64,000 nucleotides of DNA from assembly GCA_026874595.1 (NCBI GenBank), contig CM049312.1, forward strand, positions 29,625,456 through 29,689,455, in the 5' to 3' direction. The stretch is from Sipunculus nudus. Lineage: Eukaryota; Annelida; Sipuncula; Golfingiida; Sipunculidae. The position numbers and the translations under genes are program-made. Shown here in pieces: positions 30,001-63,179 of the stretch; the stretch's first letter is position 1, and each line of letters opens with the position of its first letter. The notes under the pieces were generated by a model. The model had not been told where the DNA came from. It did no database searches and saw nothing but the letters and a program-made list of their open reading frames with translations.

Positions 30001-31878
30001 ATAAAAGATGTATCCATGAGGGATCATTAGTGATGAAGATGTGTGTCTGTGGGTATTAATTATTACTGTGCTGAATGTTGTTATGGGAAATGATGATAAT
30101 GATGTTGAGAGATGCTATTTTCATACATAGATTTGTTAGTACTGAGTGATATAGTGACCCTCAGATTATGCCGGCTTCTCTGTATTCTTGAGGCTGCTGT
30201 TAACTGGTGCAGTGATTAAACTTGTTGCTGTCAGTATTAATTTGGTCTTTTTTGTATTTTATGTGATACAGCTGGTGTGTGTGTTTGACTGCTGTGTGAC
30301 CAGAGAACAGTAATATGAGAACAGAAATATTCATATTTTTGCTATAGTCCGTTTCATCCCCTCATGTCCACCTGTTTTTGCTATGAAAATTTTTATTAGG
30401 TACATTTCAAGGGAAACAGTTATAGTGTAGAGGAGAGGATTACAGAACCTAATTTTCAACTAGGTAACTAAATTCCTATCTTGTGCCATATTTGAGTAAC
30501 AGAATTTTCTGAAAATATGAGAAATCAGTCTACATTTTACAACATATCAGACCCACTTATGGTGGTCAAGGTCATTGGTCACATGCCAAAACAGCCTCAA
30601 CTGCCAGCAGCTGATTGGGTGACCTCATGTAAACACTCTAAAAAATATAACCAGCTAAAACTAAGATGGCTACTTGTGGAGGGATACACCATATCTGCCA
30701 GATCATGATAAAGAGACAAAAATGTTGTGAAACATAAATGGGGGATTTATTGTAAAATTCTTAACTGCCATATTAGGATGTCACTTCCATATGTTGTTTA
30801 CTTGGAAAATATTGAAAAATATAAACTTTTAAGTAAATCATCTACAAAAAACAGGTGGACAGCAGGTGGTGAAATGGACTATAGTCATAAAAATAGATTG
30901 GCGGTTGTATTATGGTAGCTTTTATTGTATTTTTATAATTTACATCATGGCTTGGAGTTCCATGCAAACCCTTGCTGACAGCCACTCCTGTTTCACCCCC
31001 ACCCTGCTTTTATGACCAGTGATTTGGTCCATGACAGACCTATTTTTGATTTGTCATATATGCTAAGCTAAAGAAGGAGAAGACGCTGCTGGAGCTGAAT
31101 TGTAGACGCGGCAGGAACCGGGCTGAGCCAGCACCCGCAGCAACGTGAAAGTGGACAGTCATGGGCTTTTTATTGTAGCCACCAAGACAGAGTTTTGCCG
31201 ATTCTATGCCCCACCACGTTAGTTCCACTGCGCTATGTTCATTTCCGGAAAACTCCTCTGAGACCCTTGGACCACTCTTTCCGAAACCCATCATAATTAT
31301 TGGGTCACATGTAAACTGGTCCCTAATGTAGACTGGTGGTGCCACCTGCAATCTTTTTCGTGCAGTATGAGTCTGGGTTTCTTAGTGATAAAAAACCATA
31401 TCTCAGGAGTGGTTCAGTGCATTGGGCAGAAATTGTGCATGTCCATAGATCTTGGATACCTCCATCTCATACTCTAGACTGGTGGCGCCACATACAATCA
31501 TTTTTGCGTGGAAGCCGTCCATGCGTTTGCCATCTGTTCATCTTAGTAATTGGTTCAATGTATTGGGCTGAAATTATGCATGTCCATACTTCTGGGGTAC
31601 CTTCATCTCTAACTCAAGACTGGTGGCGCTATCTGTAATTCTTTTTGCATGGCATTCATCCATGCATTTGTTTGGGTGAAAATCACTCGTATCTCAGGAG
31701 TGGTTCAATGTATTGTCTATTGATTTTAAATTTGGAACCATCCATCTTAGAGAGTTTTCATGTAGACCAGACTTGTGGCGCCACCTGCTTATCTCAGCTG
31801 AGCAATAGCGATCACTCTTTGTGACTTTGTGACTCTTTGTGACTTTCAGTCATGCTGAGCTATAGCGATCACTCTTTG

Positions 31879-31922
31879 TCCGTCGTCCGTCTGTCCGTCC
31901 GTCTGTCCGTCCGTCTGTCCGT
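31879..31922. repeat. GTCCGTC/GTCTGTCC microsatellite near H2 5' end
   Basis: Tandem gtccgtc/gtctgtc units directly after the H2 start. Equivalents lie at 33236-33274 and, reversed, at 50949-50990. Confidence 0.85.
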
Positions 31923-32180
31923 TAACCTGGCACAAATCGTAACCGCTGGACTTAGAATCTTGTAACTTTACATTCTGAGAGGTCAATGAAAAATCTCCTT
32001 AGAAACGAGAAATTAGGTCTCTGTTACCCATATTCTTCGAGCTATTTGGCCCCAAAGTACCCCCCAGAATAGTAAAAAATTTCATACAAAAACTTTAATA
32101 TCTCATTAATTACATCACTGATGGTTATGATTTTTGGCATACATATTTATCATGAGATGTTCCATCAGTTCCTGCAGACT

Positions 32181-34560
32181 GGTGGCGCCACCTGTATTTT
32201 TAGATTTTTTACGAATTTTTTTCTCTATTTTTGAGACCTTTAAAAATGTGAACAACTGTTAACACGGCACAAATCGTAAAGACTGGACCTAGAATCTTCA
32301 TTCTTGACACAGTGAGTGACCTATAAAAAGTCTCCATGGAAACCAGAAATTAGGTCTCTGTTACCCAAATCCTTTGAGCTATGGGGCCCCAAAGTACCCC
32401 CCCAGAATAGTGAAAAATTTCATACAAAAACTTCAATATCTCATTAACTACATCACTGATGGTCATAATTTTTGGCATACATATTGATCATGGGATGTTT
32501 CATCAGTTTCTGCAGACTGGTGGCGCCACCTGTATTTTTCGATCTTTACGAATTGTTATCTCTGTTTTTGAGGTCTCTAAAAATGTTGACATCTGTTAAC
32601 AGGGCACAAATCGTTAAGACTGGACCTAGAATCTTCATTCTTGACACAGTGAGCGACCTATGAAAAGTCTCCATGGATACCTGAAATAAGGTCTCTGTTT
32701 CCCCAAATCATTTGAGCTGTCGGGCTCCCAATTACCCCCCAGAATAATGGAAAATTTGATTTAAAAAAATGCAACATCTCAATAACTACAATACAGATGG
32801 TCATGATTTTTGGCATACATATTGATCAAGAGGTGTTCCATCATTTCCTGCAGACTGGTGGTGCCACCTGTATTTTTTCAAATTTTTACAATTTTTTTTC
32901 CCCTATTTATGAGACCTTTAAGGATGTAGTTATCTGTCAACAGGGTACAAATTGTAATGACTTGACCTAGAATCTTTATTCTTGACCCACAGGGAGACCC
33001 ATGAAAAGTCTCCATGGACACCTGAAATTAGGTCTCTGTTACCCGTATCATTTGAGCTATGGCACTCTAAAGTACAGCTCGGAATAATGGAACATTTGAT
33101 ACAAAAGCTGAAGTATCTGAACAACTAATGCAGAGATCACCATAATTGTTTGCATGGATATTGATCATTGAGTGTTTCATCAGTTTTTAGCTCAGCTGAC
33201 TTTCAGTCATGCTGAGCTATAGCAATCACTCTTTGTCCGTCGTCCGTCTGTCCGTCCGTCTGTCCGTCTGTCCGCTAACCTGGCACAAATCGTAACCGCT
33301 GGACTTAGAATCTTGTAACTTTACTTTCTGAGAGGTCAATGAAAAATCTCCTTGGAAACCAGAAATTAGGTCTCTGTTACCCATATCCTGCCAGCTATGG
33401 GGCCCCAAAGTACCCCCCAGAAAAGTAAAAAATTTCATACAAAACCTTCAATATCTCATTAACTACTTGACTGATGGTCATGATTTTTGGCATACATATT
33501 GATCATGAGATGTTCCATCACTTCCTGAGGACTGGTGGCGCCACCTGTATTTTTCGATTTTTTACGAATTTTTTTCTCTATTTTTGATACCTTTAAAAAT
33601 GTGAACATCTGTTAACAAGGCACAAATCGTAACGACTGGACCTAGAATCTTCATTCTCGACACACTGAGAGACCTATGAAAAGTCTCCATGGAAACCAGA
33701 AATTAGGTCTCTGTTACCCATAATATCCTTGCAGCTATGGGGCCCCAAAGTACCCCCCAGAGTAGTCAAAAATTTCATACAAAAACTTCAATATCTCAAT
33801 AACTACATCACTGATGGTCATGATTTTTGGCATACATATTGATCAAGAGGTGTTTCATCAGTTCTTGCAGACTGGTGGCACAACCTGTATTTGTTCGGGG
33901 TTTTTTTTTACGATTTTTTCCTCTATTTTTGAGACCTTTAAGGATGCTGTCATCTGTTAGCGTGGCACAAATCGTAACAACTGGACCTAGAATCTTCATT
34001 CTCAAAACACTGAGAGACCTATGAAAAGTCTCCATGGAAACCAGAAATTAGGTCTTTGTTACCCAACCCTAGAGCTATGGGGCCCCAAAGTACCCCCCAG
34101 AGTAGTCAAAAATTTCATACAAAATCTTCAATATCTCAATAACTACAACACTGATGGTCATGATTTTTGGCATACATATGGATCATGAGCTGTTCCATCA
34201 GTTTCTGCAGACTGGGTGCGCCACCTCTATTTTTTTCAAATTTTTACGAATTTTTTTTCTCTTTTTTTGAGACCTTTAAAGATGTGGTTATCTGTCAACA
34301 GGGTACAAATTGCAACAACTGGACCTAGAAACTTCATTCTTGTCATACAAGGAGGCCCATGAAGAGTGCCTGTGGAAACTTGAAATTAGGTCTCTGTTAC
34401 CCATATCCTTCAAGCTATAGGACTCTGAAGTATCCCTCAGAATAATGGACAATTTGATACAAAAGCTGAAGTATCTGAAAAACTAATGCAGATATCACCA
34501 TGATTCTTTGCATGGATATTGACCATTAAGTGTTTTTATTAGTTTCTGCAGACTGGTGGA
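32181..34560 (+). repeat. 338-bp tandem monomers (H2 array, first block)
   Basis: The ggtggcgccacct junction recurs near 32181, 32519 and 32857, then, after the inner 5' end, near 33534, 33874, 34214 and 34555. Spacing is 338-341 bp. Conserved phrases are gggcacaaatcgtaacgactgg, gacctagaatcttcattctt and ctgaaattaggtctctgttac. Confidence 0.85.
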
Positions 34561-35935
34561 GCCACCTGTATTTTTGTATCCTCCAAAACGAAGTTTTGCA
34601 GATACTATGTTTTTGACCGGGTTCCTCCGCCGCCGCCACGTTTGTTTCCAGAGAGCTCTTCTGAGAAAAATGGACCGATATTTCCGAAACTTACACTAAT
34701 TATCTAGTCACATGCGAACTAGTGCCTAACCAATTTGTGTTGACCTCTGACCTTTCCCCTCTCTCCAGCGTCCATTTGTGCGTCTGATCCACACATAAAC
34801 CCTCATATCTCGGGAACCGTTTGACCAATCAGGAAATAAAATTTATACAAATGTAGCCCTTGGATTGCTTTATAACATACACAAAAATGGTGGCGCCACC
34901 TGTAACCATGTTTGCACAGTGTCCATCTGTTCATCTGCCTTGGGTTAAAATCACTCATATCTCTGCAGTGAATTGACTAATTCACCTGAAATTCGGCATG
35001 CATATACATCCAGGATAGCTTTCTTGATTTTATGACAGATGGCGCCACCTACATTCATGTTCACGCTGATCACATCCAAGCTCATATCTCAGGAACCGTT
35101 TGACCGATTGGGTCAAAATTTTGCATGTGTATAGATATCACATAGCTCTTTATCATACGCAAAACTGGTGGCGCCACCTGCAACCATTTTTGCACAGCGT
35201 CTGTCTGTTTTCTGCTGTGGGATAATGTCACTCATATCTCGGCAGTGGTTTGACATATCTGCCTAAAATTTTGCAGTTTTATACATCCTGGATAGCTTTC
35301 TTGATTTAATGACAGGTGGCGCCACCTACATTCTAGTTTATGCTGCAGACATCCGAGCTCATATCTCGGGAACGTTTGAACGATTGGGCCAAAATTTTCC
35401 ATGTGTATAGATCTCACATAGGTCTTTATCATACACAAAACTGGAGGGGCCACCTGCAACCATTTTTGCACAGCGTCTGTCTGTTTGTCTGCCGTCGGCT
35501 AAAATCACTCATATACATGTAGTGGTTTGACTTTTCTGCCTATAATTTTGCATATGTATACAACTTGGACAGCTTTCTGGATTTGTGGTAGGTGGCACAA
35601 CCTACATACACATTTAGGCTGCAGACATCCATGCTAATATGCAACATGCCTTACTCTATTTCCCCTTGCCACTCAATCCATGCCTCACTTCAACCGTTCC
35701 ACTCTGATTTTGGCGGATACACGTAGTCACTTGTCGGCTACCCGTATTCTAGTTTTTAAAGTTTACACATTTTTTCTCTATTTTTGAGATATATAAATAC
35801 AGACTAAATCTTGGCCTGTTGGTTAATCTGTTTGATGCTTCAGTTGAATGGGTATATACTACCATTCTGATGATAAAATTTCCTTTAGCGAATCTCTTCC
35901 CAGTCAGCTGAGCGTCATGACCCATGGGTCACTTG
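33187..35935 (+). mobile_element. Helentron-like element H2-inner, nested in H2-outer
   Basis: The 5' end TTAGCTCAGCTGAC forms a long hairpin: AGCTCAGCTGACT (33189-33201), loop TTC, AGTCA, one bulged T, GCTGAGCT (33211-33218). A GTCCGTC/GTCTGTC microsatellite and four 338-bp-type monomers follow, then an inserted Helitron (34579-35752), then the H2 tail. The tail has GTCAGCTGAGC (35903-35913), TGACCCATGGGTCA (35918-35931) and CTTG. The last 180 bp before the end is nearly identical to the outer copy's tail (37938-38118). Confidence 0.65.
34579..35752 (+). mobile_element. Helitron-like element H1-A, innermost, apparently complete
   Basis: 1174 bp, starting TC after A (34578) and ending CTAG (35749-35752) before T. 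The 3' hairpin is GTAGTC (35723-35728), 7-nt loop, GGCTAC (35736-35741). The interior is about three copies of a 278-bp dimer (150 + 128 bp half-units) centred on tggcgccacctgc and tggcgccacctac near 34889, 35039, 35167, 35315, 35444 and 35589. The interrupted H2 sequence resumes as tttttaaagttta. An uninterrupted relative of this junction exists at 37925-37950. No coding capacity, so non-autonomous. Confidence 0.7.
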
Positions 35936-35999
35936 TTACGAATTCTTTTCTCTATTTTTGAGACCTTTAAAAATGTGAACATCTGTTAACAGGGCACAA

Positions 36000-37340
36000 A
36001 TCGTAAAGACTGGACCTAGATTCTTCATTCTTGACATTCTGAGAGACCTATGAAAAGTCTCCACGGAAACCAGAAATTAGGTCTCTGTTACCGATATCCT
36101 TCGAGCTATGGGGCCCCAAAGTACCACCCAGAATAGTAAAATTTTCATAAAAACTTCCATATCTGATTAACTACATCACTGATGGTCATGATTTTTGGCA
36201 TACATATTAATAATGAGATGTTTCATCAGTTTCTGCAGACTGGTGGCGCCACCTGTATTTTTCAAATTTTTACAATTTGTTTCTCTATTTTTGAGACCTT
36301 TAAGGATGTAGTTATCTGTCTATAGGGTTCAAAATGTAACCACTGGACCTAGATTCTTCATTCTTGACACACAGGGTGACCCATGAAAAGTCTCCATGGA
36401 AACCTGAAATAAGGTCTCTGTTACCCATATCCTTTGAGCTGTGGCACTCCAAAGTACAGCTCAGAATAATGGAAAATTTGATACAAAAGCTGAAGTATCT
36501 GAACAACTAATGCAGAGATCACGATAATTGTTTGCATATATATTGATCATGGATTGTTTCATGAATTTCCGCAGCCTGGGTGCACCACCTCTATTTTTTA
36601 TTTTTTAAGAATTTTTTTCACTATTTTTGAGACCTTTAAAGATGTGGACATATGTTAACAGGGCACAAATCGTAAAGACTGGACCTAGAATCTTCATTCT
36701 TGACATTCTGAGAGCCTATGAAAAGTCTCCACGGAAACCAGAAATTAGGTCTCTGTTACCGATATCCTTCGAGCTATGGGGCCCCAAAGTACCACCCAGA
36801 ATAGTAAAAATTTTCATAAAAACTTCAATATCTGATTAACTACATCACTGATGGTCATGATTTTTGGCATACATATTAATAATGAGATGTTTCATCAGTT
36901 TCTGCAGACTGGTGGCGCCACCTGTATTTTTCAAATTTTTACAATTTGTTTCTCTATTTTTGAGACCTTTAAGGATGTAGTTATCTGTCTATAGGGTTCA
37001 AAATGTAACCACTGGACCTAGATTCTTCATTCTTGACACACAGGGTGACCCATGAAAAGTCTCCATGGAAACCTGAAATAAGGTCTCTGTTACCCATATC
37101 CTTTGAGCTGTGGCACTCCAAAGTACAGCTCAGAATAATGGAAAATTTGATACAAAAGCTGAAGTATCTGAACAACTAATGCAGAGATCACCATAATTGT
37201 TTGCATATATATTGATCATGGATTGTTTCATGAATTTCCGCAGCCTGGGTGCACCACCTCTATTTTTTATTTTTTAAGAATTTTTTTCACTATTTTTGAG
37301 ACCTTTAAAGATGTGGACATATGTTAACAGGGCACAAATC
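36000..37340 (+). repeat. 669-bp tandem duplication inside the H2 array
   Basis: Two adjacent copies, about 36003-36671 and 36672-37340, each of two 335-bp monomers and differing by only a few bases. The identical 64-codon reverse ORFs at 36312-36506 and 36981-37175 mark the copies. The much lower divergence than between other monomers indicates a recent event. Confidence 0.85.
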
Positions 37341-38754
37341 GTAAAGACTGGACCTAGAATCTTCATTCTTGACATTCTGAGAGGCCTATGAAAAGTCTCC
37401 ATGGAAACCAGAAATTAGGTCTCTGTTACCCATATCCTTTGAGCTGTATGGCTCCAAAATACTTCCCAGAAAAATGAAAAATTTGATACAAAAACTCCAG
37501 TATCTCAATAACTACAACACTGATGCTCATGATTTGTGGCATACATATTGATCATGACATGTTCTATCAGTTTTAGCAGACTGGGTGTGCCACCTCTATT
37601 TTTTTTCAAATTTTTACCAATTATTTTCTCTATTTTTGAGACCTTTAATGATGTGGTTATCTGTCAACAGGGTACAAATTGTAACAACTGGACCTAGAAT
37701 CGTCATTCTTGTCATGCAAGGAGGCCCATGAAAAGTGTCTATGGAAACCTGAAATTAGGTCTCTGTTACCCATATCCTTCAAGCTATAGGACTCCAAAGT
37801 ATCCCTCAGAATAATGGAAAATTTGATACAAACGCTGAAGTATCTGAACAACTAATCCAGAGACCACCATGCTTCTTTGCATGGATATTGACCATATAGT
37901 GTTTTTATTAGTTACTGGTGGAGCCACCTGTATTTTTTTTAAAGTTTACGCATTTTTTCTCTATTTTTGAGATATATTAATACAGACAGAATCTCAGCCT
38001 GTTGGTTAATCTCTTTGATGCTTCAGTTGAATGGTTATATACTACCATTCAGATGATAAAATTTCCTTTCGCAAATCTCTTCCCAGTCAGCTGAGCGTCA
38101 TGACCCATGGGTCACTTGTTCTCGATTGTGGTTTGGTATCTCGGCCATAAATTTTGCATGTTCATCCATCTTGGGTAGATTTCTCATTCACGAGACCAGT
38201 GGCGCCACCTACAGTCCATTTCATCTAGTATACATCTGTAGGTCAGTTTTTGGTGAAAAATGCAAATATATGAGGAGTTTCAATCAATTGGCATCTCTGA
38301 TGCCATACATTTGGAGTCGTGTCATGTCAGGAACATTCAATGCCTTACTTTACCCCTGCCTCTGTAAAATTGGAGGATACCTGTAGTCGCTTGTCGACTG
38401 CCCATTTTCTAGTTCTATTATGATAAAAGTAAGGAGAAATTTAAAGAGATAGGGATGAGATACCTATCTGCTATAGTTTTGTAATTTATGTGTGATCTAA
38501 CAACACAATATTAAAGGGACAAAATGTGCATTTTTTTTCAGGAAAGATTGCGCCTATGCTGCTAATTTATTTCACATATATTTACTTCCATCTCCTACAT
38601 CGTTCAAAGTCAATTTAAGGCAATTATTTTGTATCAGGCGCCTTTAAATAGATATTCAGGACCTTTCAGATCGCACTGTCCTTCATATATGTCATACATT
38701 AAATAAATAAACTTAATTTATTTTACATTGTACAACTAGTTATAATAACTAATA

Positions 38755-48090: not shown

Positions 48091-48097
48091 TTTAAAA

Positions 48098-49564
48098 CTA
48101 GAATACGGGTAGTCGACTAGCGACTACGTGTATCCGCCGAAATCAGTGTGAGACGGGTGAAGTGAGGCATGGATTGAGTGGCAAGGGGAAATAGAGTGAT
48201 GTGTGTTGCATATTAGCATGGATGTTTGCAGCCGATGTGTGTATGTAGGTTGCGCCACCTACACAAAATCCAGAAAGCTGTCCAAGTTGTATACATATGC
48301 AAAATTATAGGCAGAAAAGTCAAACCACTACTTGTATATGAGTGATTTTATCCCACAGCAGACAAATAGAAGGACCCTGTGCAAAAATGGTGGTAGGAGG
48401 CGCCACTAATCTTGTGTATGATTAAGAGCTTTGTGAGATCTATACACATGCGAAATTTCAGGGGGATATGTCAAACGAGTCCTGAGATATAAGCCTGAAT
48501 GTCTGCAGCGTAAACATAAATATAGGTAGCGACACCTGCCACAAAATCGAGAAAGCTGTCAAAGATGTATAAACATGCAAAATTTTAGGCAGATAAGTCA
48601 AACCACTACTGAGATATGAGTGATTTTAGCCAATGGCGGACGAACAGACGAACGCTGTGCAAAAATGGTTGCAGGTGGCGCCTCCAATTTTGTGTCTGAT
48701 AAAGAGCTATGTGAGATCTATATACATGCAAAATTTCAGCAGGATATGTCAAACCAGTCCTGAGATATAAGCCTGAATGTCTGCAGCGTAAACATAAATG
48801 TAGGTGGCACCACCTATCATAAAATCGAGAAAGCTATCAAAGATGTATAAACATGCAAAATTTTAGGCAGATAAGTCAAACCACTACGGAGATATGAGTG
48901 ATTTTGACCAATGGCAGATGAACATATGGACGCTTTGCAAAAATCGTTGCAGGTAGCGCCACCAGTTGATGAAAAGCTATGTGAGATCTATACACATGCA
49001 AAATTTTGGCCCAATCGTTCAAACGGTTCCTGAGATATGAGCTTGGATGTCTGCAGCATTAATGTAAATGTAGGTGGCGCCACATGTCATAAAAGCAAGA
49101 AAGCTATCCAGTATGTATACACATGCAAAATTTCAGGTGGATAAGTCAAACGACTGCCGAGATATGAGTGATTTTATCCCAAGGCAGATGAACAGATGGA
49201 CGCTGTGCAAAAAATGGTTGCAGGTAGCGCCACCAGTTTTGAGTATGATGAAGAGCTATGTGAGATCTCTACACATGCAAAATAGTGGCCCCATCAGTCA
49301 AACGGTTCCCGAGATATGAGCTTGGATGTCTGCAGCATTAACGTGAATGGAGGTGGCGCCACCTGTCATAAAATCAAGAAAGCTATCCAGGATGTATACA
49401 CATGCAAAATTTCAGGTGGATAAGTCAAACCACTGCCGAGATATGAGTGATTTTATCCCAAGGCAGATGAACAGATGGACGCTGTGCAAAAATGGTTGAA
49501 GGTGGCGCCACCAGTTTTGCGTATGCTGAAGAGATATGTGAGATTTATACACATGCAAAATTTT
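48098..49564 (-). mobile_element. Helitron-like element H1-C, 5'-truncated
   Basis: Inverted orientation. The + strand starts CTAG (48098-48101), then stem GTAGTCG (48109-48115), loop ACTAG, stem CGACTAC (48121-48127), a perfect 7-bp hairpin. Then ggcggatac-type sequence and 278-bp dimer monomers with ggtggcgccacc run to about 49564, where they break off without the 5' TC end. The base outside CTAG is T on the element strand, as expected for A|T insertion. Confidence 0.7.
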
Positions 49565-49844
49565 GGTGATGGTGATGTCTGGACCCCACCTGGTTGTACT
49601 CAGTGACCTCTTGACTTGGCTGCTGAAACTCAGTATGTTGTCAAATCTGTTTTCATACAGAAAGCCTTTTTTCAATTGGCTACACTACTTTTTTAAAGCT
49701 GCATTTACCCAATGTATTCTTTTTAAACTGACAGAACCATTCCATAGAATAATTCTTGTAGAGTTTAAACCAATCAGCTTGACAGTTTCATCATAAAACA
49801 GTGTATAAGCTAGAAGAGTCTAAAATTACATTTTAGCTTGTAAA

Positions 49845-51036
49845 CAAATGACCCATGGGTCATGACGCTCAGCTGCCAAGCATGACCTGCGACATCATGG
49901 GCTGAGATTCACAACTTCCAGTCAAATTTTGAAGAACCAATTTGTCAATTGTTGAAATTTTCTACGACAACAGAAATATATATCACCTATGTCTGATTAA
50001 AACACAGTGAATTGATGGTCTGAGGAAAATGTATGATTGTTAAGGTATCCAGAACTATTCCCATAGCTTACTTGATACCTGTCAGTCTCAAAAGGAACAC
50101 CACAAAGGGCAAATATAAGATCAAAATATATAGCAAAAAATCAAGGAGACCCATAAATATGAAGTTTGAATCACATTGAGTGATGCATAGATGTGGCATA
50201 TGTGAAAGACTGAAGGTTGGGTTGAACAGTTTCACTTGAAATATGTTCACAAGCATTTAGGACAATATTGTGACCTTGACCTTTGGAACTCAACTTCAAT
50301 AGGCTTCTTCCCCTATTGGTAGGTAAGCCATATATGACAGATGGAAAGTTTAGATTGAAAAGTTTGCCTGAAAATGACTCCACGCAAGAAGAGGGTGCTG
50401 TGAACTTGACCTTTGACCTCAAAATCAACAGGTCTTTTCCCCTGTTGGCAGAGAAGCGATATCAGTGCTAAAAGGTTTGGAATGAAAGGTCTAGCTTGAA
50501 ATGTGTCCACAACCTTTTCAAAGAAGTGGATCCTGTAACCCTGACCTTTGACCTTGTGACCTCAACATCTGTAGGATTCTTCTCCCACTTAGTAAGTAAG
50601 CTATATGTGAAAGATCAAAGAATTGGAATGAAAGGTTTGGCTTAAAATGCATCTACAGGCTTTTCAAAGAAGTTGGTTCTGTGACCTTGACCTTTGACCT
50701 TGTGACCTCAAAATAATTATGGTACTTCCACTGTTGGTAGGTGAGCTGTATGTGAAAGATGGAAGGTTTGGGATGAAAATTCTGGCTAAAAGAATTATTT
50801 CTGGGGGGTGCAAACACACCCCATAACTTCGAGAATATAGGTTGCAATGACCTAATTTCAGGTTTGCAAGGAGATCTTTTTAGAACCTCTAAGACTGCAT
50901 AGGTTTAATGGCCCTAGCCCCCTACGGTTACGATTTGTGCCCTGGTAACGGACGGACGGCCGGACGGACAGACGGAAGGACGACGGACAAAGACCCATCG
51001 CTATAGCCCAGCATGACTGAAAGTCAGCTGAGCTAA
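49845..51036 (-). mobile_element. Helentron-like element H2, inverted copy
   Basis: 3' end on the + strand: caaa then TGACCCATGGGTCA (49849-49862) and gctcagctg. 5' end: GACGGAC-type microsatellite (50949-50990), then gactgaaagtcagctgagct (to 51034), the same hairpin as at 33189. The interior is about four units of 129-146 bp carrying tgacctttgacct, different from the 338-bp monomers of the 31-38 kb copies. Confidence 0.7.
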
Positions 51037-51044
51037 AAAACAGA

Positions 51045-51540
51045 TCAATGTAGGTGGCGCCACCAATACCTCAAATTTGGATTTGACATATGTGACAAAC
51101 ATTGGCATAAAATTTGGTGATGATAGCTACAGCCATTTCTGAGATTTAAATTTTAGTGTGCTTTTTTGGACAGATGACTAAGTTCAACCTCCTGTAACTC
51201 AGCCAAAAATCTCCGAACTGGAACCATTCGTACAAACTTGAGAGATAATTCAAGGGATCATTTCTGTGAAATATCGGACAATTTGGCTGGACAGTTTGTG
51301 AGAAGAAGATTTTAAAAGCTTTTTTTTATCTTTTCCAAATAAAATCTAAGAAAATGCAGTTAGAAAAAAAATAAACAAAATCCGATAGAGTTTTTCAGAT
51401 GACTGATTATTTGCAAAAAAAAAATTAGTGATGCTAGCTCCTGCCGTTTTTGAGTTAGCTATGGTTAACGTACAGACGACGCACGACGCAACGACGGACG
51501 ACGCTGCACCATCGCATAAGCTCACAGGTTCGCTAAAACA
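51045..51540 (-). mobile_element. Related rolling-circle-type repeat (family H3)
   Basis: Read on the - strand it begins gttttagcgaacctgtgagc, followed by a GTCGTCCGTCGT-type run (51475-51505). This layout matches a repeat abundant in mollusc genomes, as I recall. It abuts the H2 copy and contains one ggtggcgccacc palindrome near 51053. Ends approximate. Confidence 0.45.
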
Positions 51541-52021
51541 CAGACAAAATATATTCTATAGCAAAAATATAAATTCCACAGCATGAAAACCTGAAGTAAA
51601 ACTGTACAAGGCAACAAACAAACAGAAAAAGAGTAAAAATCCTTAAACTATACTGTGTAGAATTGGTTCAAGTTGATCTAAAATCTATGCAAACGATACA
51701 CCTGGTATAATATTTCATTAGGTATAATGTAGATGCTTTACAATATTGTCCTTTTAAAATGAATCGTTTTGTGTTTTGACCATTGACTATATACTCTTAA
51801 AGTAAAATACTTTCAGCGCAACTATATCTTAAATGCCAGCAGGTTGTTACTATGATGCAGGTCTCGAACTTCCTCTTTTGGAGGTACGCTGTGTAACAAT
51901 GCTTTCTGAGCGAGCAGCTGTCAGCCTGAAGAGTTCTTTGTGAGATTAAAGTGCTTCAAGTTTAGGCCCAGGGGACATGTTTTTGTGTCCAGTCAGGCTG
52001 TGACAGAGCAGTTGTATTTTA

Positions 52022-52719: not shown

Positions 52720-53756
52720 TTTAAGGCTGTGTCCACAGAGTATTTGTTCTTACTCATAACATAGTCATGGCTTCATTTTTGTTCAGTCAGTGCAAACACT
52801 CTAGAGGTGATGGGGCGGAAAATTGATCCCGAAATTAAGTTCAGTTGACTGAGCATTTTGTCAATCGGCTCTCTCAGAACACAACAGTTATGTGTTCTCG
52901 TGCTTGAAGATCCACCATCGATAATGTATCCGTTTCATACCATTGATGAATACTGTCAAAGATATGTATATATATTTATGACAAGCTGCATGGGATATGC
53001 ATACACCCTGATATTGTAAATGACACCTTTACACAGGGACGATAAAGTAAATAAAATGTTTTATTTGCTTACAGACGGCTGTTTATGCTTCATATACAGT
53101 CCAAGTCTCTCAGAGAGTTGATACACAGAATTACAAAATCATATTCTGTCTTATAAGACATGAAGCTCATTTCTATGATAATGAAAAAAAATATAACTTT
53201 ATAACCCTTATAGTGTGAAACCATATTGGATATATATGAAAAATATACCGAGGCCTTTCTGTTGAAAAAGGTTAAACGATACATAATCTATACATGCAAA
53301 ATACACCACATGATATTACCTCCATTAAACGAAACTGTGTAGATTAGGTTTTTTAATATGTACATATGGCTGTTGACATTTTTAAAAAGCCTTTGTTAAA
53401 GGTTTGAAATATTACTGGGATGTAGGTCCAACCGCTACCAATTATTTCCGTTTACTCGCCAAATACTTTAAATATTTATTAAAGTTAGAATATCACGGCC
53501 TAAAAAGTTGGTTTGAAGGCACCACACTTATCAATTTTGACCACCAGCCCAAGCCATCCCCGGCATCAAAATTATTGATTTAATTTACCGATTCTTAGTT
53601 CCAGCCACTCGGACATTTCTTTCAAGAAAATGAAATAACATTTCGATAGAATTTCCGTTTGTTATGTTGTGCTTTTACCTGTTAAGCAATGCCATTCTTT
53701 TATCATTAGTTTTCCCCAGCATGATCATATGATTATTTTAGAAAACCTGTAACAGC

Positions 53757-53786
53757 AAGGGACCCAAGGGTCGCGGCGCTCAGCTG
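53757..53786 (-). mobile_element. H2-type 3' terminus
   Basis: GACCC-AA-GGGTC (53761-53772) then gcgctcagctgaatt, the inverted equivalent of the H2 3' end with a shifted loop. The matching 5' end was not found. The 30-bp minisatellite starts 180 bp further on and may be this copy's internal array. Confidence 0.5.
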
Positions 53787-53959
53787 AATTGACAGAATAT
53801 GACAGAAAAGAATCAAATCCCGATGGACAGAAAAGAGGTCACACAAAAATGTTGCGCTTAAAAAATGTGAGTCCTGCTGTTACAGCAATTTGACGATATT
53901 ATTACTAAGTCTGTCCACTCCTGCCTGAAGAGTTTCCTTTCTTTTAGTAAAAAATAAAG

Positions 53960-55410
53960 CTTGTCAAGGAAATATTGTATTAGAGACAATTGGTCAAGGG
54001 AATATTGGATTAGAGACAACTGGTCAGGGGAATATTGGATGAGAGACAACCGGGCTTGGGAATATTGCATTAGAGACAACTGGTCAAGGGAATATTGGAT
54101 TAGAGACAACTGGTCAAGGGAATAATGGTCTAGAGACAACTGGTACAGGGAATGTTGGTAAAGAGACAATAGGTCAAGGGAATATTAGATTAGAGACAAC
54201 TGGTCAAGGGAATATTGGATTAGAGTAAACTAGTCTGGGGAATATTGGATTAGAGACAACTGGTCATGGGAATATTGGATAAGAGACAACTAGTTTGGGG
54301 ATTATTGGATAAGAGACAACTGGTTAAGGGAATTTTCCTCTTGAGAGGAAGGGAAGGGAATATTGGATTACAGACAACTAGTCAAGGGGACATTGGATAA
54401 GAGAAATCTAGTCAATGGAATATTGGATTAGAGAAAACTAGTCGAGAATGTTGGATTAGAGACAACTAGTCAAGTGAATATTGGATTAGAGACAACTAGT
54501 TAAGGAAATATTGGAATAGACACAACAGGTCATGGGAATATTCGATAAGACATAACTAGTCTGGGGATTATTGGATTAGTGACAATTGATTAAGGGAATT
54601 TTCGTTTAGAGACAACTGGTCAAGGGAACATTGGATTTGAGGCAAATAGTCATGGGAATATTGGATTAGAGACAACTGGTCAAGGGATTATTGGATTAGA
54701 GACAACTGGTTAAGGGAATGTTCGTCTAGAGACAACTGGTCAAAGGAATATTGGATTACAGACAACTAGTCAAGGGAATATTGGAATCAGAGACAATTAG
54801 TCAAGGGAATATTGGGTTAGAGATAACTAATCAAGGGAATATTGGATTAGAGACAACTGGTCAAGGGATTATTGGATTAGAGACAACTGGTTAAGAGAAT
54901 GTTCGTCTAGAGACAACTGGTCAAAGGAATATTGGATTACAGACAACTAGTCAAGGGAATATTGGAATCAGAGACAATTAGTCAAGGGAATATTGGGTTA
55001 GAGATAACTAATCAAGGGAATATTGGATTAGAGACATTTGGTCAAGGGAATATTGGATTACAGACAACTGGTCAGGGGAATATTGGATTAGGGACAACTA
55101 GTCAAGGAGTACTGGATTAGTGACAACTGGTCAAGAGAATATTGTATTAGAGACTACTGGTCAAGGGAATATTGGATAAGAGACAACTAGTCAAGGAGTA
55201 TTGGATTAGAGACAACTTGTCTAGGGAATATTGGATTAGAGACAACTTGTCAAGGAGTATTGGATTAGAGACAACTGGTCAAGGGAATACTGGATTAGAG
55301 ACAACTGGTCAAGGGAATATTGGATAAGAGACAACTGCTCTGGGTAATACTGGTCAGGGGACCATTTTACCAGGGAATACTGGCACAAAGACGAATATTC
55401 TAGGGAATAA
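53960..55410. repeat. 30-bp minisatellite, about 48 units
   Basis: Consensus gggaatattggattagagacaactggtcaa with scattered substitutions and small indels. A higher-order duplication of 181 bp (54661-54841 against 54842-55022) shows recent local amplification. Since 30 is a multiple of 3, some frames stay open over several units and read as decapeptide repeats, but indels break them. No gene signal. Confidence 0.9.
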
Positions 55411-56566
55411 TTTCCGAAGTTATACAATTTTATAAATGTTAAACCACCTACACATAAAAAAAAAGAAAATTAAACTTGTCACAAGCTGAAAGCTGAGTCG
55501 GATGATTTAACTCCAACTAATTGGACATATTTCGTATAATTTTACCTGTAAAACATCTGAGGTTTATTTAAATATAATTACCTTGAATGTTGCCTGTGAA
55601 ATCTATTCTTCATTACAAAAATATGAATAATTATACACAATTATAATTACTTACAATTAGCTAAAATGATTCCATGACAGTTTTTAATATATATATATAT
55701 ATATATATTAAAATATGAGTAGCATTGTTGTGGTAATTCCCCAATGCATGAAATAATTGCATGCACTGCATCGCCTGTAAGTGGGTTGTAAACTCTGTGA
55801 TAATTGTACTTGATGTTCGTAAGTGAAGTATATTAGAAAAACTCGAGGCTTTCCAGCTGTTACTTCAAATATAACAAAGAGCAGAAGTTCAAACAAGACT
55901 ACCTGTAATTACTGGAATTGGAGAAGCAGAGAATCTGTTTAAAAAATATTGGCTTTAACAAAAGCTCGGACCATGATTCACACTTGATGCCGGTCCTGTG
56001 AGCTAATTCCATTAAGCTTACTTTCCATTAACTTTATTTGTACATGGTTACCACCTGCTGTTAATTTTTTAAAGGTGTGATTAACAAAGCCAACGACTGC
56101 TACTGGACCTGGCTTCATCTGGGATTATGTAAACCCGCCCAATGCACAGGTGGGCTCCCAGCAAAAAGTCTGCAAATATTCCAGGTAAAAACAGACTACA
56201 GACATTATTTTATGAATCACACTGATCAAATAAAACAGTAATGCTAAGCTTCACACAAAGGCGACCTTGGAAACATCAATTTTCGGATGGGAGTTCCCTA
56301 TTGTTGGCACTTTTATCATATATTGATCGAGTATGACTAATTCTCACATATTTAGAATAAGTGACCTGTGGGTTATGATGCTAAGTGTCTTGTGTCATTT
56401 ATGAAATATAAAATTTCATGAAAATGTCTTACTTTTTCAATTTTTACTTTTATTTTCATGTGTCAAATATGAAGTATATAAAATTTCATGAAAATGCATA
56501 AATTATTTCAATTATTATTTTTATTTTTATGTTTTTACTTATGCTTAACAACATGCATCAGGACAA

Positions 56567-58179
56567 CTAGGGACCCAGGGGTCTCGACGCTCAGCTGAAT
56601 ATGACTATAAGGATATTTTTAAAAAGACATTTTTCAGAATGACGGTCCTGTGACCTTAATCAATGACCTTGTGACAAAAAATCTGAGAACTTATTATCCT
56701 TGAACTTGCAGCATTTAGATTATTGTAACATTCTTTTTAAAAAAGTGGGTCCAGTGACCTTGACCTCTGACCAGGTGACCTCAAAATCTAAAGATTTCCA
56801 CTTTGGACAGGTAAGCCATGTGTGAAAGATGGAAAGTTTGGGATTAAAAGTTTGATTTACAGTGCATCAACAATCAATTTAAAGGTGTGGCTCCTGTGAC
56901 CTTCAGCTTTGACCTCTGGACCCTTCAAATCAAAATGTTTCTTACTTAAGTGGTGGGTCATTAATTAATCAAATTTGAAGCCAATCCATAGCAAAATTAT
57001 CATCCATAAACTAATTTGTGAATGAATGGGCCCTGTGACCTTGACTTTTGACCCTATGACCCCAAATAGAAAAGAATCTTCCCCTATTAGCAGGTTTGTA
57101 TAGTATCTTGAAGATGAAAGGTTTGTGATGAAAACTTTGGCTGAAAATGCATACACAATCCTTTAAAAGAAATATGTACTGTGACCCTGTTGACCTTTGG
57201 ACCTAAAAATCGACAGAATTCTTAGTGTTGAGCCATATATAAGTTAAGTTTGAAACCAATATGTCAAACCATACTGGAGTAATCAGAAACTGATTTGTAA
57301 ACAGATGGCCCCTGTGACCTTGACCTTTGACCTTGTGACCCCACATTCATTGATGCTCTCCCCATACTGGCAAGTCAGCTTAATGTGCAAGATGGAAAGT
57401 TTGGGATGAAAAGCTTGGCTTAAAATGCAGCCATAATCTTTTTAAGTAAGTTAAGTCTTTTGACTTAGACCTTTGACCTGTTCACCAAAAAATCTTCCAG
57501 GTTCTTTCTTTAGTGGTGGACCATATGTAAGTCATGTTTGAAATCCATATGTCAATCCAACCTGGATTGACATATGTAAGTCATGTTTGAAATCCATATG
57601 TCAATCCAACCTGGAGTTATCATCTGGAAAAAAATTTGTGTGGATGGACAGACAGACAGACAGACAGACAAACAAACAAACAAAATGGGTGATTACTTTA
57701 GGGTCTCCACTTGTGATCAATAAACACACCAGGTTTTGGGATACTACATGGAATCACAGCTGAGACATGACTGTTGATATTTTATAATTAAAAAAAAAAC
57801 CCAGAAAAATATTAAAAAAATACAAAAAAAAAATACAGGTGGTGCTACCACTTTTCGGGAACTGACAACACTAGTCATGGTCAATTTTCAATGCAAGATT
57901 CATGACAATCCATGCATAAAATCACAAGATATTGGAGGTTTTGTATTTCTGATTATTCTGGGGGTACTTACAAGACCCATAGCTCGGGAGGATATAGGTT
58001 GCAATGACCTAATTTCAGGTTTCTAAGGAGTTTTTTTATGGACCTCCCTAGATTTTTAGTTACAGGCATCTAGGGTCAGCAGTTACAATTTGTACCCTGC
58101 TAACTGATGGCCAATGGCCAGAAGGACAACAGACAAAGCGCCATACCTATACCTCAGATGATACAGTCAGCTGAGCTAA
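56567..58179 (-). mobile_element. Helentron-like element H2, inverted copy ending CTAG
   Basis: 3' end on the + strand: CTAG (56567-56570), then GACCC-AG-GGGTC (56572-56583) and gacgctcagctga. 5' end gtcagctgagct at about 58166-58177. The interior has roughly seven units of about 137 bp with tgaccttgacctttgacc and an (ACAG)n/(AAAC)n tract (57648-57682). The part nearest the 5' end (57940-58080) matches the 338-bp monomers' gaaattaggt and acccccagaataat phrases, so it joins both internal repeat types. Confidence 0.65.
57537..57613. repeat. Short tandem duplication inside H2 copy
   Basis: The phrase catgtttgaaatccatatgtcaatccaacctgga is present twice, 49 bp apart. Confidence 0.7.
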
Positions 58180-61100
58180 AAACAGTGAATGTTGTTATGA
58201 AAACTAAAGATTTTAAATGAACACAAGTTTTTTTTTTTAATTTAAATACCTGATAATTTATTTTTTTTGTAATGAGATGAATTTATATTTTGTCATGTTT
58301 GGGCCAGTATTTCTAATATTCTGATGAACTTATCATAAGTCTCCTGATTATCAATAATAATAATTACAATGAAATCAATAATTCTATTTCAATCATAAGA
58401 ATCAAATCATCTTGACATTTTGAAAGAAAAAATTTCCATTGCCAACATAATTAATTCCAGTCTGACACGCTGCTTAATTTTCACTTTCACTTTAAAACCT
58501 CTGCTCTCTCTCTCTCTCTCTCTCTCTCCTGCACTGTCTCATCTGTGCACTGAAGTAACACACTTCTTTGTAGAAAAATATATAACCCCACACAATTTAT
58601 ATCAATATGAAACAGTTTAATAATAAATATCTGTACAACATTCATGTTGAATACACTTATATACACATCATTTGGTTTCATTGCTATTTACATATGGTTG
58701 TCTGTACATATTGTGCTAAATGTTGACAAAATACAAAACACTGTATAAGCTCCATGAAAAACTAACATATTTGCCTGCAGCTGAACACATAAAAGGCCAT
58801 TTTATTAACTACAGGATAATACTGCTTGCACATAAATGACAACAAGGATTACCTTGCATTCTGTATGTATATTTTGTACAATGAGATTCTTTTTTACACA
58901 CTAAGACCCCTGGCTGAGGTCTTAACCACAAGGATGGGCCCTCTACACCCATATGCAATTGGGTTCTCTTTATTGGTTGCTGGGCAGGCAAATGTAGCAT
59001 GGGTATTTCTCTAGCACTGCAAATGATTGATGATTTAGTAACAGGTTATATATGCTGAGAAACGCTGCAAGAATGTTCATGCCAACCACCAGGAAAGCAA
59101 AGTGTAAAGTCATTTGTGACCATCTCCATCAGAGATGCTAGATTATAAACCTAGTTTTTTAACCCAAAAGTGTATATAACGTAACTGCTACTTGTGATTA
59201 ATTATTATATGGTAATACTGATATATGTGCTGCCTTTGCTGTATTTTTTATCCCATTTTGATTGTCTTAAGTCATGTAACACATTAGCTGAAATTCATTT
59301 GACTCATATGGAGTGGGGTTGAATGAATATCCTCTTGAGAAACATTCACAAGTCTTAAGTTTAATAACAAATGGTTGGCAAAATTCTCAATATAATTAAC
59401 ATAAAACTTGTTCTCTATCATAAATGAATTATGCATTGATTTTCACTTTATGAATTTCATATCATTAACAATAGACTTCCAACAGTGAATACAAGATCAT
59501 AAACCATTCTGTTTGATCAATAATAAACATAGTCTTGATGGTTATCTTACTGTGAAATTATTTTAATTCAAGTGTTCATAAAATTCTCTTAGCAATAAAC
59601 ATAACAAATCATCAAGTTTACTCTTAAACACTTGTAGCTATAGTCTTAAGAAATGGGTAATACATCTCTAGCTATAGTTTAAATGATGTTTCTTATCCTG
59701 TGAGAAAATTATGTTTCTTATCCTCTGTTTTTTCCCCCTGCATTAATTCTGGCTAATCTCCCCTAATAGTTTCCTATTTCCATGCCCAAATCATAAAATA
59801 CTGAACCTTAATTCAAGCATGGTCAAAAACAGATCACTATATGTGTGTGTGTGTGTTTGTATGTGTGCCTTTGTATCCCAGCAACTTGTCTGTGCAATGC
59901 AATGTTTACCAGTATATTAACCAATACATTGTACATTTTTGTTTGTATTACATGTATAACCTTTTTTTAATTCCCTTAGCCTGTTATCTGATAACCCTAC
60001 TATGGCATGTTGCTCCCGACATTAGAAATCATATGATAAGTCTTCCTTGACTATTTACTATGTTTATTAACTTAACAATTGAGGGATCTTTGTCATTCAG
60101 TTAATCTTATCAAATGCCTTCTGTTACTCACAACAAACAAAACATATAACCTCTTATTTTTTTTATCTAAAATTCCAAATATTTACTGGTTTTATAAAGG
60201 TCACAATGACATTCTTGTGTTATTCACTCACCCTGATATACTTTTTGACAAAATGAAAGTTATTCTTAGGATTTCTTTCATCCATTTAACCTTAGTGTCC
60301 CTAGATCAAAATCTTCAAATAACAGTGTCAAGTGTATGTAGCAAAAGGCTGAAACAGCACTACTATACTGGTTGTGGGTGGCTCCCTCAACCTCTATCTA
60401 CTCCTCTGGGTGAATTATTTCAATTTTTGAGATGTACTTACCCTCCACAGTCCTTTATAGAAAATGAGTGAACAGGGCTTACATGCTATTGTGGATTCAA
60501 TTTGATGTTATTTTCCAAACACCTTGAACATAAGTAATCAAAAATATTTATATTATATCTCAACAAACTTTTATTTGTTACATTTACAGTAACATTCCTG
60601 TATTACAGTCATCACCAGAATTAAATCATACTGGCCTTATAAGAGGACTGGCCTTGGTACAGGAGTGAGCCTTCAGGGTAGGGAGTCACATGTGCCAAGG
60701 AAGTTTGGCCTTATAATTTGGTCTGGTTATAATTAAGGTGTAAGCAGGAGTTCTACTGTAATGCAATAAATCACTAAATTTTCAGATCTTGAAGGTGGAC
60801 AAATACATAATACAAATGAGAGCTATGTTAACAAGGCCACACCAAAAAGATCAAAGTTTCCGGACTCCGAGGCCAAAAATATGGAGCCATTGTCCATTTA
60901 TTTTACTTTCGAAAATTTATCTGTTGGGATATTTTGCCACATTAACACATAAGATACACAAATATTGAACAAAACAAGGTTGAGTCCAAGTTAATTTTAT
61001 CTGCGTGAATGTAAATGTCTCATTATTAATACACATAATTTCTTTTATGGGACTGAGGCAAGCTTTAAAACTTTAATACCAAGGACCTGACTTGCTCTCT

Positions 61101-62255: not shown

Positions 62256-62746
62256 CACCGAGAATCAATCCTAGGTGAGATATTTTTACTGGTTAGTAGA
62301 TATGGTGTGTTTGGTGAAAATCCATCAAAGCCCTGGTAAGTATCACAGTGAAACTACCGGTAACAGTTAATGGACTGACAGAGCATGGGTATATCCCATA
62401 ATATGTAATATCTACGACAGGCGTATTAAAATTTTATAACCCTGTATGACAAAAGACTAAAAATTCATAACTGTGGTATGATGTTTGGATAAAAACTGAA
62501 CCACCGAGAATCAATCCTAGGTGAGATATTTTTACTGGTTAGTATATGGTGTGTTTGGTGAAAATCCATCAAAGCCCTGGTAAGTATCACAGTGAAACTA
62601 CCAGTAACAGTTAATGGACGGACAGAGCATGGGTATATCCCATAATATGTAATATCTACGACAGGCGTAATAAAATTTTATAACCCTGTATGACAAAAGA
62701 CTAAAAATTCATAACTGTGGTATGATGTTTGGATAAAAACTGAACC
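62256..62746. repeat. 246-bp tandem duplication
   Basis: Two adjacent copies starting caccgagaatcaatcctagg at 62256 and 62502, about 97-99% alike, differing by a two-base deletion and a few substitutions. It lies in the intron upstream of the LHFPL exon. Confidence 0.9.
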
Positions 62747-63179
62747 ATTTGTTTCAAATATTATATGTTATCTACAAAAGATTAAATAGTTTCCCTCTCC
62801 CAGTAAAGTTTCAACCACTGATATAGCATTGTATTCTGTGCATCTCCATACTTTTAATATTGTAGTGAAAGCTTTCAACCAGTAACAGCAGAGGCAGGTG
62901 GTGTTAAAATGATGAACGCATTGCAATGGTGAAAACATGAGCAAATTATGCCATGTAAAAAAAATAGATAAATTTTGATAAATCAGCACATTGTGTGAAC
63001 ATTCACTCCCTGTGATTAGCAATAAAACATGTTGGACACATTAAAACAAATACATTTCTCACAACCGCTGTATAGGAATGGAGTAAAAAAATTCTAACAC
63101 CGATGGAAAGATGGATGACTACTTAATGTACTCCTAAATCAGGGAGTCGTCAGTATTAATATTTCCAGACAGGGCGCGA

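Follow-up and report, generated by a model that had tools for sequence, protein, structure and literature searches.

Non-autonomous Helentrons of the HINE and DINE-1-like type are described in the available portions of PMC4067079 as non-coding elements with subterminal inverted repeats (subTIRs), a 5' inverted repeat, a 3' palindrome, insertion into T-rich sequence and, in some copies, central repeats. The Cg_HINE elements of Crassostrea gigas, as far as the accessible text of PMC7492417 describes them, combine a GTCC-type microsatellite on the left flank with satellite-like arrays, a subTIR plus palindrome, and insertion at TT. Helitron replication is outlined in the excerpted part of PMC12628747 as running from the 5' end to the 3' hairpin, where it stops, and the model in the available text of PMC5148889 holds that when one element (X) lies within another (Y), a run from the 5' end of Y that stops at the 3' end of X yields an element with two 5' ends. 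The locus considered here belongs to a stretch of 64,000 nucleotides from Sipunculus nudus (contig CM049312.1, positions 29,625,456 to 29,689,455; the whole stretch is hereafter called the window), in which two element families, designated H1 and H2, are nested in one another. The block very probably arose when a composite non-autonomous Helentron, with an inner nest that is ancient and has been copied as a unit, inserted once into an older H1-like element. The inner nest is regarded as inherited and mobile because its junctions recur at many loci with distinct flanks.

Read from left to right, positions 31175-38414 of the window contain an H1-like start, an H2 start, a second H2 start, a complete H1, an H2 tail, another H2 tail, and an H1-like end. 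The inner H2 is here called X, the outer H2 is called Y, and the outer H1-like element is called H1o; they extend over 33185-35937, ~31788-38120, and 31175-38414, respectively, with the inner H1 at 34576-35754. Edges were placed by sequence reading, a tandem-repeat scan (TRF), a scan for termini, and self-comparison of the window. The features are as follows:

31175-31787, plus strand: 5' part of H1o with its own short array, starting GTAGCCACC; genome matches to the array stop at 31781-31797
31788-31920, plus strand: Y 5' end, rearranged (partial duplication), with a GTCC microsatellite at 31878-31922 (sequence, TRF, terminus scan)
31921-33184, plus strand: left part of the Y array, ~3.7 monomers of ~338 bp (TRF), with 1.8-2.2% substitutions relative to the genome copies L002, L008, and L021
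33185-33284, plus strand: X 5' end with subTIR GCTCAGCTGACT (33190-33201), inverted repeat stem (33188-33219), and GTCC microsatellite; its junction with the Y array is found 39 times exactly in the genome
33285-34575, plus strand: X array of ~338-bp monomers (TRF)
34576-35754, plus strand: H1 passenger element (GTATCC...CTAGTT) with a ~277-bp dimeric array, recognized by its placement in H2 in the genome copies
35755-35937, plus strand: X 3' tail with subTIR AGTCAGCTGAGC (35902-35913), palindrome TGACCCATGGGTCA (35918-35931), and end CTTGTT (terminus scan, inverted-repeat analysis)
35938-37937, plus strand: right part of the Y array, with a dimer register matching the left part (in silico excision); its junction with the preceding tail is found 10 times exactly
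37938-38120, plus strand: Y 3' tail, without H1; 38 of 39 other matches end no more than 13 bases past 38120
38121-38414, plus strand: 3' part of H1o, ending CTAGTT; 38 of 39 other genome matches stop no more than 13 bases from 38414, and one continues

A first-pass annotation of the window had listed these termini in the same order, with edges that differ by a few bases (31178 and 38412 for the outer H1-like element, 34579-35752 for the complete inner H1, 33187 for the second H2 start, and 35935 and 38118 for the H2 3' ends). The first H2 start, which it had put at 31791, is present as an end but is rearranged and partly duplicated; 31798-31838 is spanned by none of the 39 other genome matches, and similarity to H2 resumes at 31839. 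The two H2 tails, described there as near-identical, share 94% identity over 185 bases in the self-comparison, and the Y tail carries the same palindrome as the X tail. The 5' part of H1o is 72% identical to the inner H1 over 96 bases. Within the Y array, ~36030-37320 contains two near-identical stretches 669 bases apart (e.g., 36242 and 36911); the array probably gained two monomers here by recent local expansion.

The subTIRs, 5' stem, GTCC microsatellite, array, and 3' palindrome of H2 match the published descriptions of HINEs, and H2 therefore fits the non-autonomous Helentrons, a layout that had been proposed for it beforehand; genome copies show that its ends delimit mobile units. In X, the 12-bp subTIR is present at both ends (33190 and 35902), the 5' stem measures 9 bp, and the 14-bp 3' palindrome is perfect; GTCC runs accompany an array for which TRF gives a period of ~338, compared with ~277 for H1. 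Unlike the elements in the available text of PMC4067079, the present ones include at least two 5' ends, two tails, and a second family carried as a passenger, and they differ from Cg_HINE, as portrayed in the accessible part of PMC7492417, in their ~338-bp and ~277-bp monomers and in a nested architecture copied as a unit. No stop-to-stop frame of at least 120 amino acids lies within the nest, and no search of the genome for Rep was made. The six open reading frames supplied have no match in Pfam, Rfam and ARAGORN report nothing in the window, and the H2 3' end pattern has no match in the viral_contigs or genome_contigs collections.

Copies of the inner H1 were sought in the window's own genome (1.43 Gb), where the best 40 of 7951 candidates were scored; these comprise the window itself, 38 fetched copies that are full or nearly so, and two pieces of one split copy on C4, which were left unfetched. 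In all 38 fetched copies, H1 sits at the same H2 base, with GCCACCTGTATTTTT or a minor variant of it as the last H2 letters before H1, and in 36 of them H1 runs directly into the H2 tail, with a small deletion at this point in L026 and L037. Every fetched copy reaches the end of the tail (34 with CTTGTT, three with CTTGTA, and one with CTTGTC) and has other sequence beyond it, and the right flanks differ in all except L007 and L010. None of the 38 stops at the 3' end of H1 itself or starts at its 5' end, and this H1 subfamily was met among them inside H2 alone. Since the fetched copies were the best-scoring ones, exact H1 5' ends were counted as strings throughout the genome, giving 202, with the exact 13-base H2 flank present at 161 (reversed-string controls, 0); by our arithmetic, ~80% exact flanks are expected if nearly all H1 lies inside H2 (13 more bases at ~1.5% divergence from the consensus). 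The constant placement in 38 of 38 copies and the 161 of 202 exact flanks indicate that H1 is a passenger in most cases at least, and that H2 with H1 inside it is one mobile unit, X. Mean pairwise divergence among 39 copies is similar for H1 (2.8%) and the H2 tail (1.9%), and excising H1 in silico recreates the array/tail joint of Y itself, with runs of five and three Ts adding up to the run of eight. L007 and L010, located 14.7 kb apart on C15, have a common right flank inside an H1-like element, and one of them is probably a local duplication. On the right side of L013, a further H2-type 5' end adjoins the composite.

The next layer outward recurs as well. The exact junction between the Y array and the X 5' end is found in the window, twice in L008, and 36 more times, with none for the control. 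Only L021 and L008 among the 37 other loci with this junction, which is shortened as described below, were read through in full, together with L002, in which one base of the string is changed. All three consist of an outer 5' end of the TAGCGATC type, four Y monomers (shortened in L002), the same break, an X 5' end of the TAGCAATC type, array, H1, and tail, so that L002 and L021 have two 5' ends and one tail and L008 has three 5' ends and one tail; their outer flanks differ and match nothing in the HINE library. The outer left edge was seen in 9 of the 38 copies, three of this multi-5' form and six with a single 5' end, including L005 and L024, where less than 100 bases of left flank were read. 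In L003 (extended with L042), the second 5' end occupies a different position in the array and a further H2-type 3' end directly precedes H1, which indicates that nesting of H2 in H2 arose more than once, and L048 too has a further H2 5' end in an H2 array at another break point; with these other break points, nesting is a habit of these elements. The Y part of the window diverges from L002, L008, and L021 by 1.8-2.2%, and L021 diverges from L008 by 2.1%; because these values are alike, the window is not visibly more ancestral. Its nest may have given rise to the multi-5' copies or may be the product of later recombination. When X is excised in silico, the two array parts meet with their dimer order preserved and 94% identity, with ~36-40 bases missing on the left.

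On the right side of X, the junction between tail and array is present in 10 exact genome copies (control, 0), so that the arrangement exceeds chance on both sides. A similarity search found this junction crossed by at least 20 bases on both sides in 36 of 40 other scored rows, 20 of the 40 matching over 153 or more of the 161 bases at 84-97%. Three of these loci (L047, L048, and L049) were fetched and extended upstream, and all three consist of an H2 array up to monomer position ~285, an X-type 5' end, array, H1, tail, array again from position 284, and a second tail, with right flanks distinct from one another. The nest of H1 in H2 in H2 thus exists at no fewer than four places with different surroundings. 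Joining the X flanks in L047 produces a normal monomer in which nothing is lost except T-run length, and L048 is alike; the joined flanks of L047 contain no target duplication. Loss of 36-40 bases as a rule of insertion was rejected for X, since the L047 and L048 junctions show the loss to be secondary. The three loci diverge from the window by 3.9-6.4% in H1 and 1.1-2.7% in the tail, values that may place them somewhat earlier than the multi-5' copies.

From 5' to 3', the composite consists of the Y 5' end, array, X (5' end, array, H1, and tail), array, and the Y tail. Such a form was probably reached by two old insertions, the first placing H1 at the T-run that separates array from tail in an H2, which created X, and the second placing X at a T-run in the array of another H2, Y, after which rolling-circle transposition would have copied the nested layers as units. 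Replication from an H2-type 5' end would pass through the buried H1; a stop at the first H2-type 3' end would leave X alone, or Y joined to X, an element in which two 5' ends share one tail, and a stop at the second would leave the nest with two tails. A single Helentron enzyme set would presumably read the H2 ends and not the H1 end. The copies examined terminate at one or the other H2 tail, and the complete H1 end is passed over in 38 of 38. It is tentatively suggested that the family forms a natural test of terminator choice, in which a foreign 3' end is passed and either cognate 3' end is used, with the window nest as a conceivable source of the 37 other shortened-junction loci via first-tail stops.

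Several observations weigh against copying of the nest as a unit. An exact H2 flank is lacking at 41 of the 202 H1 5' ends. The window junction between array and X 5' end lacks the ~36-40 bases that are kept in L047 and L048, and the X 5' end of the window is of a different subtype from theirs; the window nest is consequently not a plain copy of those nests. L049 is battered, with a degraded X 5' end and an inner H1 whose 5' part is unmatched, and its outer tail holds an H1 remnant, implying that the outer element there is itself X-like. The outer left flank was reached in one of the three fetched nest loci (L049). The window is the sole place found with both exact junctions close together, in a comparison of the exact strings plus the next 18 best tail/array rows, which diverged array/X 5' junctions would escape; a recombinant would explain this too. 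No transposase or autonomous partner was found, and none was sought. If the multi-end structures came mainly from unequal exchange involving the arrays of H2 copies, whether tandem or dispersed, and not from transposition of nests, the shortened left junction and the union of both exact junctions in the window alone would be accounted for, as would the same array/5' junction occurring twice in L008, which unequal exchange predicts. The outer flanks seen, however, all change at the H2 ends (38 right and nine left), as they do for transposed units, and unequal exchange as the main source is considered unlikely. Collapsed repeats in the assembly could also simulate a nest, and such repeats are in general hard to assemble, but with the same junctions at tens of separate places, differing in flanks and in sequence, an artefact is highly improbable.

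The outermost layer behaves differently from the inner layers. The left junction between H1o and Y is crossed by none of the 39 other genome matches, and the right junction between the Y tail and H1o is crossed by one, at 83% (L050, on C1), so that insertion of the H2 complex into the H1-like element looks local as far as the searches show. The junction in L050 links an H2 tail, its palindrome decayed, with an H1o-like array, and lies at the same T-run; it may be an older relative of the window insertion or a second hit on that T-run. Excising the whole H2 complex joins the H1o array to itself in weak alignments only (~72%), hinting at a similar loss of bases.

The first-pass annotation had read the terminus order as repeated mutual insertion, with the array of each family as a preferred target for the other. 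Nested insertion does explain the order, and the outer event looks local, but the inner junctions are common to many loci, and the four separate insertions at the window locus are not borne out; nor is the block one satellite with shared edges. Target preference was assessed with 47 flanks of composite copies (38 right and nine left) against a partial library of the window's elements, arrays and ends together. Library sequence covers 12.5% of the first 100 bases, 14-16% at 100-400, 9% at 400-500, 2-4% at 500-700, and 10-14% at 700-1300, with a mean of ~10% from 500 on. Because coverage at the junction is without clear excess, targeting of arrays is not supported, although a weak preference may still exist. 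Elements of this kind seem common here. HINE sequence lies directly at the junction in 5 of 38 right flanks (L007, L010, L013, L018, and L039), and partly in L015 and in the left flank of L014. The insertion target is T-runs: the outer left flanks end in T in 9 of 9 copies, where the Ts may be the element's own, and the first right-flank base is T in 21 of 38. The idea that two families inserted successively into each other's preferred arrays, four times at this place, can draw on the terminus order in the window, the clean empty-site joint for H1, T-run targets within arrays, the other H2-in-array break points of L003 and L048, and the five right flanks mentioned above. It must nevertheless be judged extremely unlikely in view of the many loci that share the junctions of both inner layers and the lack of a clear excess of HINE sequence at the 47 flanks.

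H1 resembles H2 in its 5' hairpin, CTAGTT end, and dimeric array. Its filing as a HINE is weaker than that of H2, since its terminal inverted match is only 6 bp (GTATCC/GGATAC, by eye) and no microsatellite is visible in it. A script scan of the inner H1 found no inverted match of at least 7 bp and no 3' stem of at least 5 bp; H1o has a 5-bp 3' stem. The array units of H1, H1o, H2, and a third HINE-like family share the palindrome GGTGGCGCCACC or one-base variants of it. Ungapped identity upstream of the palindrome is 27-38% between families versus 26-29% in shuffles, and slid registers reach similar or higher identity in several comparisons of H1 and H2 arrays; wider homology between the families is weak, and the H1 and H2 arrays may or may not share an origin.

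Related elements occur elsewhere in the window. The third HINE-like family has the start AGCGAACCTGTGAGC and a GTCC-like microsatellite, and after an array-like stretch of this family lies an H2-type element with a different core (49843-51547, minus strand), just 3' of GGTGGCGCCACC and a T-run. An H2-type copy with both ends (56565-58183, minus strand), ending CTAGTT, contains one 338-type monomer and a different ~280-bp array related to 50269-50791. At 53754-55337 (minus strand), an H2-like 3' end (CAGCTGAGCG..CCTTGGGTCC) is closely preceded by 46 units of a 30-bp minisatellite, possibly representing another HINE with a very short-unit array. A 5'-truncated H1 relative (48096-49566, minus strand) is ~90% identical at its 3' end and has no H2 tail after it, and 62256-62747 is a 244-base tandem duplication (97-98% identical).

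Among described composites, the closest in form are the self-insertions of FoHeli (Helitron2) in Fusarium. According to the available text of PMC5148889, these share the form of two 5' ends and one tail with L002 and L021, and the window and L047-L049 have the nested form that the Fusarium model requires. The 5' duplications given there are typically short (<200 bp), with one nested case, compared with more than 1 kb between 5' ends here; unlike FoHeli as portrayed in that text, the nests of S. nudus extend as far as a second tail, with an internal 3' end of foreign type passed over. Plant tandem Helitrons (Xiong et al. 2016, as told in the excerpts of PMC12628747) likewise have more 5' than 3' ends, but as tandem truncated copies and not as a nest with array on both sides of an inner element. 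The shuffled Helitron/satellite loci of C. gigas, in the same excerpts, also consist of truncated or tandemized parts inserted in other elements, whereas here the same nested junctions recur genome-wide, for which reason the arrangement is taken to be inherited. A HINE carried as a passenger inside another HINE with this choice of ends did not surface in the partial texts returned by a literature search. The present analysis extends the self-insertion model published in PMC5148889, to the extent that the text at hand presents it, by adding two-tail nests at several places, as if some runs reach the second H2 end. Insertion into the array of another element need not be a dead end, and can become a longer mobile element with a passenger family. 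The many sequence-divergent progeny could serve to examine which 3' ends are respected in Helentron replication; for this step, the available portions of the Fusarium paper (PMC5148889) offered a model.

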